DNA of 64,000 bases from Microbacterium endophyticum (GTDB lineage: Bacteria; Actinomycetota; Actinomycetes; Actinomycetales; Microbacteriaceae), in NCBI RefSeq assembly GCF_011047135.1, contig NZ_CP049255.1, positions 2,046,001 to 2,110,000 on the forward strand, given 5' to 3'. The stretch's first letter is position 1; each line of letters opens with the position of its first letter. Positions 17,731 to 59,593 of this stretch are shown one piece after another. The position numbers and the translations under genes are program-made. Under the pieces are notes generated by a model that did not search any database, was not told the DNA's origin, and saw only the letters and a program-made list of their open reading frames with translations.

Positions 17731-18708
17731 ATGCCGCGACATCTGGCGAGATCCAAGATTGAGACTGCCCTTGTCATGTGGAGCACGCTGCGTGACGCGG
17801 GATGGAGTGAACGAAGTATCCGGGCAGCAGTGGCAGAGGGCGCCTTGCATCGGGTGCGGCGCGGTATTTATGTCACTGGAACGCTTTGGCGCGAATTATG
17901 GCCGGAGTCGCGCCACCTGCTGCACACACTTGCTGTCCTGCGTGCGAGTAACAGCGAGGCTGTTGTTGCCTCTCACTCCTCCGCGGCTGTATTGCATGGG
18001 CTACCGCTCTATCGGGTGCCCACACCGCGGGTGCACCTCACCGTCGGGCCGGACGTACGCATCTCTTCGTCTCCGGACGTGATGCGTCACGTGGCTGACG
18101 TGGATGCGGCGGATGTCGTCGTCCGCTTCGGTCATCGGTGCACGAGCTTGGAGCGAACCGTCTTCGATCTCGCTTGCACTCTCAACGTTGAAGCCGCTAC
18201 CGCTAGCGCCGACGCGGCCCTACGCAGCGTGGCTCTGGCGGGGAATCTGTACGACGAAATTGAGGCCGAAAAGTGGCGCAGCAAAATGATCACTCGCGCG
18301 GCAGCAACGGGTGTTCGCGGCATCCGTTCAGCAAGGAGAGTCGTCGAATTCTGCGATGGCAGGGCGCAACTTCCGGGCGAAAGCGTGAGTCGAGTGCAGC
18401 TTGCGCGTCTCGGCTTCGTGAATGTGCGGCTGCAGGTACCTGTTGCCGCACCCGGGGGTGGTTCGTACTATCTCGACTTTGAACTGGGAAAAGAAGCATT
18501 TGGCGAATTTGATGGCAAAGACAAGTATCTGGATGAAGCGATGCGCTCGGGGCGAACCATTGAGCAGGTCTTGCTGGCGGAGAAATCCCGGGAAGACTGG
18601 ATCCGCGGCGCAACTCAGCGAAAATTCGCACGCTGGGGCCATGAGCACATCCGAACTCCACAAGATCTGGCGCAACGGCTTTCTAGTTTCCATATCTTTC
18701 CGAACTAG
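17731..18708 (+). CDS. AbiEi-antitoxin-like N-terminal domain with DUF559-like C-terminal domain
   Basis: 325 residues from ATG 17731 (only a weak GAGAG ribosome site). The first 75 residues look like a winged-helix AbiEi-type domain, with [21 protein letters not shown], core [16 protein letters not shown], which is the family's hallmark. A middle region has [14 protein letters not shown] and [13 protein letters not shown]. The C-terminus has [20 protein letters not shown] (residues about 248-267), where the D...E-x-D-G-K layout matches the Vsr-like/DUF559 nuclease fold. Such two-domain proteins are common singletons in actinobacteria and usually lack the AbiEii toxin; none is seen here. Function unknown; role in type IV toxin-antitoxin or DNA transactions is possible but unproven. 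Confidence 0.7.
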
Positions 18709-54832: not shown

Positions 54833-54973
54833 CTACACCGGCTCGGTGGTGCGGATCAGACCGCAGTTCACGCATGACCAGGCCACAAGAAACCGCTCAT
54901 CGTCGAGGATCTCGAACTTGAGGACATCGCCGCAGGTGGGGCAGAGCCGCGGATCTGACACATGCGCCCTCAC
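54833..54973 (-). CDS. 46-residue zinc-ribbon protein coupled to cydC
   Basis: Short gene found by reading the minus strand past the cydC stop. GTG 54973 overlaps that stop (GTGA) and the frame runs 46 codons to TAG. It has two Cys pairs, LCPTCGDVLKFEILDDERFL (Cys11, Cys14) and AWSCVNCGLIRT (Cys34, Cys37), a C-x2-C-x19-C-x2-C zinc ribbon with four beta-strand-like stretches. Nothing else is encoded in 54756-54970. Translational coupling and the intact Cys pairs support a real protein. Function unknown; it could be a small regulator or a chaperone-like partner, but nothing ties it to the cytochrome beyond position. Confidence 0.65.
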   Translation of the reverse strand: MRAHVSDPRLCPTCGDVLKFEILDDERFLVAWSCVNCGLIRTTEPV

Positions 54974-56775
54974 GCAATGCGTCCGGCGACGAGGCGCACA
55001 GAGCGATCGACGAGCCCTGCGGGTACTGCCACGTGGGAGATGATCACGACTGCGTGGTCGCGGTCGACGGCGCCGAGCATGTCGTGCAGCAGTGAGTCGG
55101 AGGCATCCGGGTCAACACCCGCTGTCGGCTCGTCGAGCACCAGCACGGGGAAGTTGGCCAGCAGCGCTCGGGCAAGAGCGATGCGTTGCGCTTGGCCACC
55201 AGAGACGAGCACACCGCGTTCGCCGAGGGCTGCGTCGAGTCCACCGCGTTCGTGTGCCCATGAAGAGAGCCCGACGCGGTCGAGTACCGTCCAGAGGTCG
55301 GCATCTGACGCGGAATCGTGGGCGAAAATGAGGTTTTGGCGCAGCGACTCATCGAAGAGGTAGGGGTCTTGTTCGCAGAGTCCGATAGTTCGCCGCAGCT
55401 CGTCGTCGCTGATGTCGCGCGCTTCGATGTCGCCGATGCGAAATGACCCGGTGTAGTCCAAGAAGCGCACAAGCACGTGCGCGAGCGTTGTCTTGCCTGC
55501 GCCACTCGGTCCCGTGATGAGCACACGCTCGCCGGGAGCGATGTTCAGATCGACGTCGTTGAGGGTTCCCGCGTCATCGACGGATGCCGCAGCCTCACCG
55601 CCGCGCTTCGGCCACCGTGCGGCGAGCCCGACGAGCTCGATCCCGGTGTCGCCGATGCGGGCGCTGGCGGCGGCGCCATCGGTTCGGATGCTGCCGAGGG
55701 GTCGCAACATGCCGCTATCGCCCGAATCGACGCCCTCATTGCGGCGTGTTGCGACCCCTCGCGAGGGTGTCTCGGATGCGGGCGCGGGGAGTTCGGCGGG
55801 AATCTCGGCGGGGACCGTCTCGGCGATGCGGGTCGCGGCACCGCGCACTTCACGAAGCGAAGCGAGCGCCAGCGGTACGGTGCCGAAGACTTCAAACACC
55901 GCCATAGGTAGGAGCACCACGACGGCGAGAGCGGGGCCCGTGAACCCGCCTTCGCCGAGCCCCGGGAGCGCGGCAAATAGCGCGAGAAGTGAAGCGGCAC
56001 CGGCCAGAAGTGACACAGCGCCACTCGTGAGACCCTGTGCCGACGAGCGGCGGATGATGGCAGTGCGGAGGGCTTCATCGGCTCGGCGCACGCGGCTGGC
56101 CGCGGCATCCGTTGCGCTGTAGGCGGTGAGCACATCGAGAGCGGTCAGCTCGTCGACAAGTGCATCGGAGAGCTGCGACCGCAAGGGAGCGATGGCGCGC
56201 TCGGCGCGTGCGCCGGCAGCCCAGCCGACCCAGACGGCGAGGGCGAACGCGACAACGAGGCAGATTGCGAGCACCCCGGCGGCAGGCGGAGAGAGGAACG
56301 CGACGAAGATGACGCTCGCGAACGCGGCGAGCCCGGCGGTGACGAGCGGCATCACAACCCGGAGCGGCAGGTTTTGCAGCTCGTCAACGTCATCGACGAG
56401 ATTCGAAAGCAGCGCGCCGCGGCGCGTGCGGCCGAGTCCGTTGGGCGCGAGAGGAACGAGTCGACGAACAAGACTCGACCTCACATCGGCGAGCTGAGTG
56501 AGGGTGGCGTCGTGGCCCCAGAGGCGCTCGAGATACCGGAACACGCCGCGGCTGAGGGCGAACGCGCGTACTGCTACGACAACGGCCGAGATGTACAACA
56601 CGGCGGGTTGCTCGGCCGCGCGGGTGATGAGCCATGCGCTCGCCGCGAGCAACGCAACGGCGCTGATAGCGGTGCCGAATGCTGCCGCGAGCGCGGGCCA
56701 GAATTGGCGAATCGGTGGTTGGGCTGCGCGAAGAACCTCGCGGCTGCGCTGCTCGAGCTCGGTCGACACACTCAC
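54970..56775 (-). CDS. cydC: Heterodimeric thiol ABC exporter subunit CydC
   Basis: 601 residues from GTG 56775, which overlaps the cydD stop (GTGA). Six transmembrane helices occupy about 20-310 (FWPALAAAFGTAISAVALLA is helix 1), and the ABC domain about 390-601 has GPSGAGKTT, IGLCEQDPYLFDESLRQN (core CEQDPYLFDESL), VSGGQAQRIALARALL (core SGGQAQR) and VLVLDEPTAGVD. With CydD it exports glutathione/cysteine-like thiols needed to assemble cytochrome bd. The linker between the two domains contains a palindromic element (55692-55767) coding SRGVATRRNEGVDSGDSGML, core SRGVATRRNEG. A zinc-ribbon gene overlaps its end. Confidence 0.9.
   Translation of the reverse strand: MSVSTELEQRSREVLRAAQPPIRQFWPALAAAFGTAISAVALLAASAWLITRAAEQPAVLYISAVVVAVRAFALSRGVFRYLERLWGHDATLTQLADVRSSLVRRLVPLAPNGLGRTRRGALLSNLVDDVDELQNLPLRVVMPLVTAGLAAFASVIFVAFLSPPAAGVLAICLVVAFALAVWVGWAAGARAERAIAPLRSQLSDALVDELTALDVLTAYSATDAAASRVRRADEALRTAIIRRSSAQGLTSGAVSLLAGAASLLALFAALPGLGEGGFTGPALAVVVLLPMAVFEVFGTVPLALASLREVRGAATRIAETVPAEIPAELPAPASETPSRGVATRRNEGVDSGDSGMLRPLGSIRTDGAAASARIGDTGIELVGLAARWPKRGGEAAASVDDAGTLNDVDLNIAPGERVLITGPSGAGKTTLAHVLVRFLDYTGSFRIGDIEARDISDDELRRTIGLCEQDPYLFDESLRQNLIFAHDSASDADLWTVLDRVGLSSWAHERGGLDAALGERGVLVSGGQAQRIALARALLANFPVLVLDEPTAGVDPDASDSLLHDMLGAVDRDHAVVIISHVAVPAGLVDRSVRLVAGRIA
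55692..55767. repeat. 76-base palindromic element inside cydC
   Basis: Arms: GAGGGGTCGCAACATGCC (within 55696-55713) and its near-complement ending at 55761, 20 of 21 bases paired over 55695-55715 and 55741-55761, with a 25-base loop. One end is TGCCGAGGGG, the other CCCTCGCGAGGG on the complementary strand. Copy two lies in cydD (57427-57502) in the opposite orientation. It is translated in frame as part of the domain linker. Confidence 0.85.
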
Positions 56776-58547
56776 ACCGGCACCTCCAACGGTGCGAGGC
56801 GAACGATGCGATCCGCAATCACACGAGAACTGGTGCGATGAGAAATAAGGATGACGGCGGCCCCCGTGTTTGCTTCGGCTCGAAGCTGTGCCCACAGCGC
56901 CGCCTCGGTCTCGGAATCGAGTGCGCTCGAAGGCTCATCGAGCAGCAGAACACGTGCACTCGTCGAGCGAAGTCGGTAGAGCGCACGGGCTACAGCAACG
57001 CGCTGGGCTTCGCCGCCCGAGAGCCCCGAACCACCGGCGCCGAGCTCGAGATCCGTGGGGATGTCGCCGGCCGACGCATCGCGGAGGCACCTCTCGACGA
57101 GCTCGGTATCGGGTGCTGAATCGCCGAGTGCGACATTGACGGCAACCGTGCCAGAGATGAGACCGGGCCGCTGGCCAGCCCACGCGAGCTCATCGCGAGC
57201 CGCCGCTACAGCGACGCCCTCGACGAGCAGTTCGCCCTCGAACGTAGCAAAGCCGAGGAGAGCTGCCGCGATGCTCGACTTGCCCGCCCCGCTTTGGCCC
57301 TCGATGAGAACGAGTTCTTGCGCCGCGACGGCGAGGTCGACGGCCGGGAGTGAGCGGTCGCCGCGGGCCACCCGCATCCCGCGCACCTCGATGATTGGTG
57401 TGGCGCTGTGCGAACCCGCCGAAACCCCCTCGCGAGGGGTCGCAACATGCCGTAATGGCGATGCCGACGACGGTGGGAACGGCGTGTTGCGACCCTTCGG
57501 CAAATCTGCGGCGGCTGACGCGGCAGCGGGGGCGGCGGCAGCGGGGAGGGCTGCGGCGTCGTCGAGCACGCTGAAGATCTCGTCGGTGGCGGCGACGCCC
57601 TCGGACGCCGCGTGAAATTGCACCCCGACTTGGCGTAGCGGCAGATAGGCCTCGGGGGCGAGCAGAAGGATGAACAGGCCGACGGTCAACGAAATGTCGC
57701 CGCTGAGGAGCCGGAAACCGATCGTCACGGCGATGATGGCTACCGAAATCGACGCCAAGAACTCGAGCGCGAATCCCGAGAGGAAAGACACGCGCAGCAC
57801 GGTCATCGTCTCCCGCTTGTAGCCGCGGGTGACGGTATCGATCGATGATGCCGCCCGCTCGGCTCTGCCGAAGATCTTCAGGGTACTAAGGCCCCCGACG
57901 GTGTCGGCAAAGCGTGAAGCCAACGTCCGCAGAGTGTCGAACTGTCGCTTTTGCACGCCGCGGGTGGCCAGACCGATCAAGATCATGAAGATCGGAATCA
58001 GCGGCATCGTCACGATCACCGTGATGCCCGCGACCAGGTCAGACCCCAAGATCGCGATGGTCACGATGGGCATGGTGATGGCTGTTGCAATCAGCTGGGG
58101 CAGGTAGCGCCCGAAATATGCGTCGAGCGCTTCGAGGCCGTGCCCGGACGTCACGGCGAGTGCGGCACCGTTTCGGCGCGCAAGCCATGCTGGACCCAGT
58201 TTTTCGACGGCTGCGATAAGCGCCTGGCGCAGCTGCAGCGACGCTTTCGCCGCGCCTGTGGCTGAGGTGCGTTCGGATGCCGCGATCAGCAGTCCGCGAA
58301 GCAGGGCAAGCCCGAGCGCTCCCGCCGCGTAAGGGATGAGCTCGTCAATGGGCGCACCCTCGACGGCACCCACGAGAGCTTTCGTGAGGAGCCAGGCGAA
58401 CCCGAGAATGATCCCGGTCTGGGCGAGGACCGTCGCCGCGGTGACGGCGAAGAACCCTCGCGACGCCCTGCTGTAGCGCACAAGCCGAGGATCTACGGGG
58501 CTGGCCCTCGTTCGAGTCGCTGGCCCGGCCCCGTCGCGTGATGGCAT
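56772..58547 (-). CDS. cydD: Heterodimeric thiol ABC exporter subunit CydD
   Basis: 591 residues from ATG 58547. TTG 58565, overlapping the cydB stop as TTGA, is an alternative that adds six residues. Six helices (about 25-300; FFAVTAATVLAQTGIILGFA) precede an ABC domain from about 385 with GQSGAGKSS, AWAGQRPGLISGTVAVN (core GQRPGLISG), LSGGEAQRVAVARALY (core SGGEAQR) and VLLLDEPSSALD. It forms the exporter with CydC and its stop overlaps cydC. The Ala/Pro-rich linker carries the second copy of the palindromic element (57427-57502), here read in a different frame as LPKGRNTPF...RHVATPREG. Confidence 0.9.
   Translation of the reverse strand: MPSRDGAGPATRTRASPVDPRLVRYSRASRGFFAVTAATVLAQTGIILGFAWLLTKALVGAVEGAPIDELIPYAAGALGLALLRGLLIAASERTSATGAAKASLQLRQALIAAVEKLGPAWLARRNGAALAVTSGHGLEALDAYFGRYLPQLIATAITMPIVTIAILGSDLVAGITVIVTMPLIPIFMILIGLATRGVQKRQFDTLRTLASRFADTVGGLSTLKIFGRAERAASSIDTVTRGYKRETMTVLRVSFLSGFALEFLASISVAIIAVTIGFRLLSGDISLTVGLFILLLAPEAYLPLRQVGVQFHAASEGVAATDEIFSVLDDAAALPAAAAPAAASAAADLPKGRNTPFPPSSASPLRHVATPREGVSAGSHSATPIIEVRGMRVARGDRSLPAVDLAVAAQELVLIEGQSGAGKSSIAAALLGFATFEGELLVEGVAVAAARDELAWAGQRPGLISGTVAVNVALGDSAPDTELVERCLRDASAGDIPTDLELGAGGSGLSGGEAQRVAVARALYRLRSTSARVLLLDEPSSALDSETEAALWAQLRAEANTGAAVILISHRTSSRVIADRIVRLAPLEVPV
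57427..57502. repeat. 76-base palindromic element inside cydD
   Basis: Second copy, inverted relative to that in cydC. Arms GAGGGGTCGCAACATGCCG (57434-57452) and CGGCGTGTTGCGACCC (57480-57495) pair at 18 of 20 positions over 57433-57452 and 57480-57499, loop 27 bases. After turning it over, the left 23 bases match the cydC copy at 21 positions and the right 26 at 25, whereas the loop matches at only 13 of 27. Confidence 0.85.
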
Positions 58548-58561
58548 CTTTCGATCTTGCC

Positions 58562-59593
58562 TCAATGAACTTCAGCTGCGGCGCGCTCGATGCGGCTGCG
58601 GGTCACACGCTTACGGAATACCCAGTAAGTCCATCCCTGATACAGCAAGACGAGGGGAAGGAAGATGAGGGCTGCCCACGACATAATCGTGAGCGTGTAG
58701 TCGGTGCTTGAGGCGTTCTCGATAGTCAGGTTGAATGCCGGGTCTGTCGACGAGGGCATGACGTTCGGAAAGAGCGAGAACCACAGTGTGAGAACTGCGA
58801 ACACGACGGTGAACGCGCCGAAGCCGAATGCCCAACCTTCGCGGTCGCGCAGATTCGCGACGACCGATGCGATCAGCAGTACTGCAGCAAGAAGCGCGCA
58901 CACGATTGCAAGTCCAACAAGCGGCGCGCCACCGCTCGAGGCGTTCATGATCGTCCATGCGAGGAAGACCGCCGCCACGATGACCGTGAGAACGCCTGAA
59001 CGCAGGGCGAGCTTTCGTGCATCTGTGTGCACTTGGCCGTCAGTTTTCAACGCGACGAAATACACGCCGTGCGTAAAGAACAACAGCAAAGTGGTGAGTC
59101 CGCCGAGCAGCCCGTAGGGATTCAGGAGGGTGAGGAATGATCCAGTGAACTCGTGGCTGGCATCGATCGGCACGCCCTGCACGATGTTGGCGAAGGCGAC
59201 ACCCCAGAGGAATGCCGGCACGGCCGAGCCGATGACGATCATGCGGTCGAAGTTGCGCTTCCACCGCACGCTGTCGTTCTGGTGGCGGTATTCGAACGAG
59301 ACGCCGCGGAGAATCAGCGAGAGCAGAATCAGGAGGAGTGCGAGGTAGAAGCCACTGAAGAGCGTGGCGTACCACTCGGGAAAGGCCGCGAACAAGCACG
59401 CACCCGCCACGATGACCCAGGTCTCGTTGAGGTCCCAGACGGGACCGATCGTGTTGATGATCTGGCGGCGGCTGACGTCGTTCTTTCCGAGGAACGGCAG
59501 CGACATGCCGACACCGAAGTCGAAGCCGTCGAGGACGAAGTAGCCGACGAACAGGACGCCGACGATGAAGAACCAGAGATATGCGAGATCCAT
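58562..59593 (-). CDS. cydB: Cytochrome bd ubiquinol/menaquinol oxidase subunit II
   Basis: 343 residues. MDLAYLWFFIVGVLFVGYFV is the standard start (core LAYLWFFIVGVLFVGY), DGFDFGVGMSLPFLGKND (core DGFDFGVGM) follows, then WDLNETWVIVAGACLFAAFP (core NETWVIVAGACLFAAFP) near residue 54. Eight to nine helices. It is the scaffold subunit that, with CydA, reduces oxygen to water at low oxygen tension with quinol. Twelve bases after cydA's stop; a GAGCAG stretch acts as weak ribosome site. Its stop region overlaps the possible TTG start of cydD. Confidence 0.95.
   Translation of the reverse strand: MDLAYLWFFIVGVLFVGYFVLDGFDFGVGMSLPFLGKNDVSRRQIINTIGPVWDLNETWVIVAGACLFAAFPEWYATLFSGFYLALLLILLSLILRGVSFEYRHQNDSVRWKRNFDRMIVIGSAVPAFLWGVAFANIVQGVPIDASHEFTGSFLTLLNPYGLLGGLTTLLLFFTHGVYFVALKTDGQVHTDARKLALRSGVLTVIVAAVFLAWTIMNASSGGAPLVGLAIVCALLAAVLLIASVVANLRDREGWAFGFGAFTVVFAVLTLWFSLFPNVMPSSTDPAFNLTIENASSTDYTLTIMSWAALIFLPLVLLYQGWTYWVFRKRVTRSRIERAAAEVH

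Follow-up and report, generated by a model that had tools for sequence, protein, structure and literature searches.

Palindromes that lie in frame in protein-coding genes at tolerated places are known from Rickettsia, and we know of no cognate protein gene for these Rickettsia palindromic elements. Repetitive extragenic palindromic (REP) sequences, including REP doublets forming hairpins (REPINs), are dispersed inverted doublets with a conserved, species-specific arm and a loop whose length is fixed but whose sequence varies; they also form tandem arrays and bracket a gene (excerpts of PMC3116915). In the literature searched (PMC3733652, PMC6649704, PMC3116915 and PMC8266576), the only enzyme class linked to REP-like repeats is that of the REP-associated tyrosine transposases (RAYTs) of the HUH type, and REP palindromes adjoin a GTAG or CGTC tag (PMC3733652). 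AbiEi, the antitoxin of type IV toxin-antitoxin systems, autoregulates by binding two 23-bp inverted repeats, as given in part of PMC7319586. PMC3943268 was also consulted. These systems are the closest that we found to two palindromes inside the adjacent genes cydC and cydD of Microbacterium endophyticum, which lie in a stretch of 64,000 nucleotides (contig NZ_CP049255.1, positions 2,046,001 to 2,110,000), called the window below.

The two palindromes belong to a dispersed family with constrained arms and fixed geometry, and related palindromes often bracket a predicted nuclease gene, the order palindrome, gene, palindrome recurring at many loci. Probably this is a REP-like repeat family with a cognate nuclease other than RAYT, the cyd palindromes being solo, non-coding copies of a gene-carrying unit. 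The first-pass annotation had likened them to REP or bacterial interspersed mosaic elements, or to the Rickettsia elements. The family is dispersed, some of its copies lie in frame in coding sequence, and it works like REP or the Rickettsia elements, but it is not REP in the strict sense because a defining feature, RAYT, was searched for and is absent from M. endophyticum. Unlike REP, its bracketed gene encodes an AbiEi-like/Vsr-like endonuclease, the A1 consensus, drawn from 15 copies, shows no GTAG or CGTC tag next to its arms, and two copies lie in frame in coding sequence. The likeness to the Rickettsia elements lies in the in-frame placement within genes (2 of 16 copies, both also in a sister species); the phylum is another, and the Microbacterium family has a candidate cognate protein gene. 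Compared with EDxHD/Vsr-like endonucleases (I-Bth0305I, Vsr; Pfam DUF559 and REase_MTES_1575), the Microbacterium protein is predicted to be fused to an AbiEi-like part and is often bracketed by palindromes. Compared with the AbiEi antitoxin, it has an added endonuclease part, and the sites are dispersed genome-wide. The association of a REP-like layout with an AbiEi/Vsr-type nuclease unrelated to RAYT is the new point, set against the single enzyme class of the literature searched. In that literature, which omits most subscription journals, no comparable repeat-nuclease system was found, nor any paper that names 'DUF559' together with 'AbiEi'.

A dispersed family with copies in cydC and cydD

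The features of the cyd locus are as follows.
55695..55761, copy of the element within cydC: arms 55695-55714 (left) and 55742-55761 (right) around the 27-nt loop 55715-55741; covariance match C1:2101685-2101771, E 5.7e-13
57433..57499, copy of the element within cydD: arms 57433-57452 (left) and 57480-57499 (right) around the 27-nt loop 57453-57479; covariance match C1:2103423-2103509, E 1.7e-12
54970..56775, minus strand, cydC, host open reading frame (ORF) of the first copy: mechanical ORF 54970-56895, start set at the internal GTG preceding VSVSTELEQ
56772..58565, minus strand, cydD, host ORF of the second copy: provisional start codon

Both palindromes are present where the first-pass annotation had placed them, each with a core of two 20-bp arms around a 27-nt loop, and each is in frame with its host gene, the two frames being different as had been claimed. 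The further claim that they are inverted relative to one another has no other basis than the terminal ~5 bp, which are TGCCGA on one side and CGCGA on the opposite side; each pair of 20-bp arms is itself palindromic and the loops are not specially alike. With up to three mismatches, the arm word GGGTCGCAACATGCCG matches the four cyd arms (0-1 mismatch) and one 3-mismatch site within the window; at this loose setting shuffles gave 1.33 matches on average, and 3 of 100 reached five. RNA-fold z-scores of the two palindromes are -5.7 and -4.2 on the plus strand, and -4.6 and -1.8 on the minus (coding) strand.

The arms CGAGGGGTCGCAACATGCCG and their complement, with small changes allowed, are paired 16 times in the 2,916,114-bp genome. 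A covariance model, built like the A1 consensus from 15 copies, gives 32 matches at E <= 1.4e-10, corresponding to 16 places each matched on both strands; the match that follows has E = 2. Because this model finds 16 copies, the view of a two-copy element is corrected: 14 copies lie beyond the cyd pair, where a lack of further copies had been named as the refuting outcome, and the dispersed family with some copies in frame is borne out. The loop is 28 nt long in those 14 copies and 27 nt in the two cyd copies, and its sequence varies between copies. No ORF that passes a filter on third-codon-position GC content overlaps 13 of the copies; one further copy (L042) is ambiguous, and the remaining two are those of cydC and cydD. 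Of the 14 non-cyd copies, ten are within 80 bp of the 3' end of a called gene; the other four lie just 5' of a called ORF (L031, L040), before a nuclease gene (L035) or without a close called ORF (L033). The whole census consists of 15 solo copies and one copy 111 bp upstream of an intact nuclease gene. At the variable arm column pairing is random (GC 5, AC 4, AT 3, GT 3 of 15), so arm covariation was dropped as evidence for a hairpin. An Rfam search of ten loci returned no family, with a single chance-level match (E 0.97).

Age and constraint of the copies

Among the named relatives found, Microbacterium halimionae CECT 8593 is the nearest, with a CydD that is 86% identical. This species has 18 copies of the same type and one that is 10 bp shorter. 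Twelve of the 16 M. endophyticum copies are at orthologous places, leaving four unmatched in M. endophyticum and six in M. halimionae. Because the cydC and cydD copies are both in place in M. halimionae, the idea that they are recent is not supported, and the two species are a clear instance of respiratory assembly genes that carry non-coding sites in frame. Eight of the ten unmatched copies were compared in detail, and the sister lacks the element in most of them. At the place of M. halimionae L212, M. endophyticum has no element. Partial cases are L040, which is half-deleted in the sister, L042, of which a short left end is kept, and L216, which aligns on one side only and poorly. For L214 no syntenic stretch was present among those fetched. 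None of the eight comparisons of filled and absent places was clean, and insertion events with target duplication are not demonstrated.

In ten orthologous non-cyd pairs the arms are identical at 388 of 400 positions (97%), the loops at 219 of 280 (78%) in the better orientation or 201 of 280 unflipped, and the aligned flanks at 1596 of 1909 (84%). The arms differ significantly from the loops (Fisher test, p = 6e-15) and from the flanks (p = 2e-15). No insertion or deletion occurs in arms or loops, and the flanks contain 182 gap positions. Therefore, the arms and their spacing are held and the loop is not. This constraint can mean either protein-driven repair or use by the host. One of the pairs (L031/L204) differs between the sister species in the orientation of the loop to the flanks, with 22 of 28 positions identical when flipped and 10 of 28 unflipped.

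The loops of the cydC and cydD copies are no more similar to each other (0.63 inverted, in M. halimionae) than other non-orthologous pairs, and a sister relation between them was dropped. Gene conversion restricted to these paralogous and adjacent genes, or chance, is refuted by the 14 further copies at other loci and has next to no probability, as the two loops are not specially alike either.

Related elements across the genus and beyond

Pairs of the form ACACGCCG-N-CGGCGTGT occur in 180 of 295 same-genus genomes, with up to 61 per genome, and a reversed-pattern control gives 0-2 per genome. In five aligned genomes (G183, G161, G029, G260, G198) the arm is mostly common within a genome and differs between genomes, being GAGTCGCC, GAGGGGTC or a 30-bp arm that begins, for example, with TGCGAAAACACCAGTC, AACTGCAAGGGAT or GCACAACTTCGGAGA; a further arm type is GAGTGTCC. 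Genome-wide switching of the arm type was considered and dropped, as G319 and G324 each contain two types (15 + 13 and 13 + 19 copies). In these two genomes the outer and inner arms are separated by a variable 7-nt block that often does not pair. Most loops examined in G183 are alike, and its copies therefore descend from one another. Some copies are fixed in place across species while the outer arm changes, as seen 3' of pstB and, in the M. testaceum group, at the cydD/cydC junction. The arm difference between L133 and L143 may result from allelic exchange, because L143 resembles L135 there. Tandem arrays of four elements, similar to bacterial interspersed mosaic elements, are seen at G325:C1:2835427-2835793 (~104 bp) and G198:C1:687786-688279 (127-180 bp).

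Within the GAG-armed group the length of the element is 66 bp in M. endophyticum (65 bp in the cyd copies) and 56 bp in 55 of 59 GAGTCGCC copies from six Microbacterium genomes. In G493, which belongs to another family of the order, the GAGGGGTCACATATCGTTCA type is present 12 times, each copy being 66 bp long, and G713 has four, all at 55 bp; five of 35 genomes of the genus of G493 match. The difference between 66 and 55/56 bp is one turn of DNA and appears in two genera. This helical spacing is limited to the GAG-armed group, and the other element families have other lengths.

A predicted nuclease gene often bracketed by palindromes

Eight element pairs 0.9-3.1 kb apart were inspected, and five of them, all ~1 kb apart and from five genomes of two genera, bracket one gene family. 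Its protein of ~300 aa is predicted to consist of an AbiEi-like winged helix-turn-helix (wHTH) DNA-binding part (model residues 4-191) and a Vsr/EDxHD-like endonuclease part (194-297); among the folds compared, the predicted model agrees with a Vsr-like fold and with a wHTH plus a C-terminal AbiEi antitoxin domain. In Pfam, all 8 of eight members match REase_MTES_1575, always below cut-off, and all 8 match DUF559, 4 of them above it; AbiEi_4 matches 4 members, 2 of them above. NCBIfam gave no match for seven proteins, and PADLOC gave weak matches only, chiefly to AbiEi. E199, D231, H248 and D258 are invariant in 39 sequences, and we assign them as the putative EDxHD catalytic residues. A profile of the eight members has 3-13 matches in each of 24 genomes, which include eight picked for showing no ACACGCCG-N-CGGCGTGT element.

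The association was measured by a strict four-arm test, in which each flank, at most 450 bp from the gene, must contain one and the same word of at least nine bases in both orientations, no more than 130 bp apart. It holds at 27 of 49 nuclease loci. In the controls, both drawn from cyd neighbourhoods, it holds for none (0) of 3000 random segments and, among 808 other genes, for 1. The idea had come from six of the 49 loci; with these set aside, 21 of 43 pass. By subset, 18 of 28 loci pass in the best-ranked set and 9 of 21 in a set chosen afterwards. The two bracketing palindromes have equal spans at 23 of the 27 loci, differ by one at two and differ clearly at two. At 16 loci with palindromes listed on both sides, one palindrome precedes the matched start by 82-302 bp and, in 14 of them, the other lies -17 to +56 bp from the matched end. 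G002, G004, G022 and G032 had shown no ACACGCCG-N-CGGCGTGT pair, yet pass the test with other arms, and M. halimionae has at least two further element families, one with a solo copy elsewhere. The single passing control gene (L177:1199-2032) is alpha/beta-hydrolase-like and lies between two palindromes containing AGAACGCACC; similar words occur in L201.

The transposase domain of RAYT (Y1_Tnp, PF01797) is found in one of the 295 same-genus genomes and is absent from M. endophyticum, whereas the same search is positive in 5 of 14 control genomes. RAYT was therefore dropped as the cognate enzyme. Clustering of 330 flanking proteins gave no transposase, and a three-member cluster (L074, L089, L250) is the nuclease family. 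The RAYT-like gene that the first-pass annotation asked for has its counterpart in another form, the often bracketed AbiEi-like/endonuclease gene. Members of this family in M. endophyticum are as follows.
C1:2708490-2709392, intact nuclease gene with an element on one side, 111 bp upstream
17782..18549 of the window, plus strand, paralogue of the AbiEi-like/endonuclease family: profile match, AbiEi_4 at 23.2 bits (cut-off 25)
The window paralogue gives no DUF559 or REase_MTES_1575 match and no palindrome pair was found at its flanks, so it is at most a candidate member of the element family.

Proposed mechanism and rival explanations

We propose tentatively that the family may represent a new class of mobile repeat, in which a protein that joins an AbiEi-type DNA-binding domain to a homing-type EDxHD endonuclease preserves its own dyad target sites and increases their number. 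Each palindrome is a dyad of two arms (~20 bp in M. endophyticum) at a fixed distance around a variable loop. By analogy with AbiEi on its two inverted repeats, two protomers may bind the two inverted arms through their AbiEi-like parts, and the endonuclease part may nick or cut at the bound palindrome. Repair or copying would then spread the site and keep the arms intact while the loops drift. Each paralogue would have a private palindrome family, and orphan sites would be copied or repaired singly, some settling in frame in genes such as cydC and cydD, whose linkers would merely tolerate them. If so, REP-type repeats arose more than once, actinobacterial proteins now labelled DUF559 or hypothetical can be assigned a function that is open to testing, and there is a new family of site-specific endonucleases, with long dyad targets, to draw on.

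The strongest rival, which we regard as unlikely, takes the palindromes as operators or roadblocks of an AbiEi-like regulator, which would bind its own promoter and dispersed sites that serve the host, for instance in bidirectional termination or chromosome organisation between genes, with the nuclease part secondary and copies rare. Retention of the arms and exact spacing while loops drift, the operator-like position of one palindrome before the gene at the two-sided loci, the 3'-end bias of solo copies and the known autoregulation by AbiEi are all consistent with it. However, the second element near the 3' end of the gene has no evident operator role, the similar loops of G183 indicate sites that were copied and not evolved singly, and one core ranges from 0 to 61 copies between species. 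A terminator should also be harmful within cydC and cydD, each of which contains a copy.

Ordinary terminator-like hairpins, with arms kept paired by template-switch (quasi-palindrome) correction, are an improbable explanation. They would fit the 3'-end bias and the turned loop of L031/L204, but such correction explains the pairing of arms and not the same arm sequence at 16 places, fixed across unlinked loci. The random pairing at the variable column, the often unpaired 7-nt block of G319 and G324 and the lack of an Rfam family among the ten loci also speak against them. Still less probable is a classical REP/REPIN family moved by a RAYT (HUH, Y1) transposase: the layout is the same, including inverted doublets, variable loops, dispersed copies, tandem arrays and a bracketed gene, but PF01797 is nearly absent from the 295 same-genus genomes and the bracketed gene encodes an AbiEi/Vsr-type protein.

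Occupation of the cyd linkers

The cyd linkers are a tolerated place for the element, whose arms are open in all six frames. In G019, a ACACGCCG-type element lies at the CydD linker by position, an independent occupation of the same linker (L093:2165). An in-frame palindrome of the form TGAGGAGATGACGGATTCTGAGGA-N18-complement lies inside CydD of G018 and is unrelated in sequence to the element family (L116:2844 / L182:11371). The CydD linker peptide SLRSLNDRSLNDRS of G005 (L100) looks as if it were translated from a different sort of repeat. A Microbacterium-type cydD is present on a contig (L183) labelled Stenotrophomonas maltophilia P13, which points to probable contamination of that assembly.

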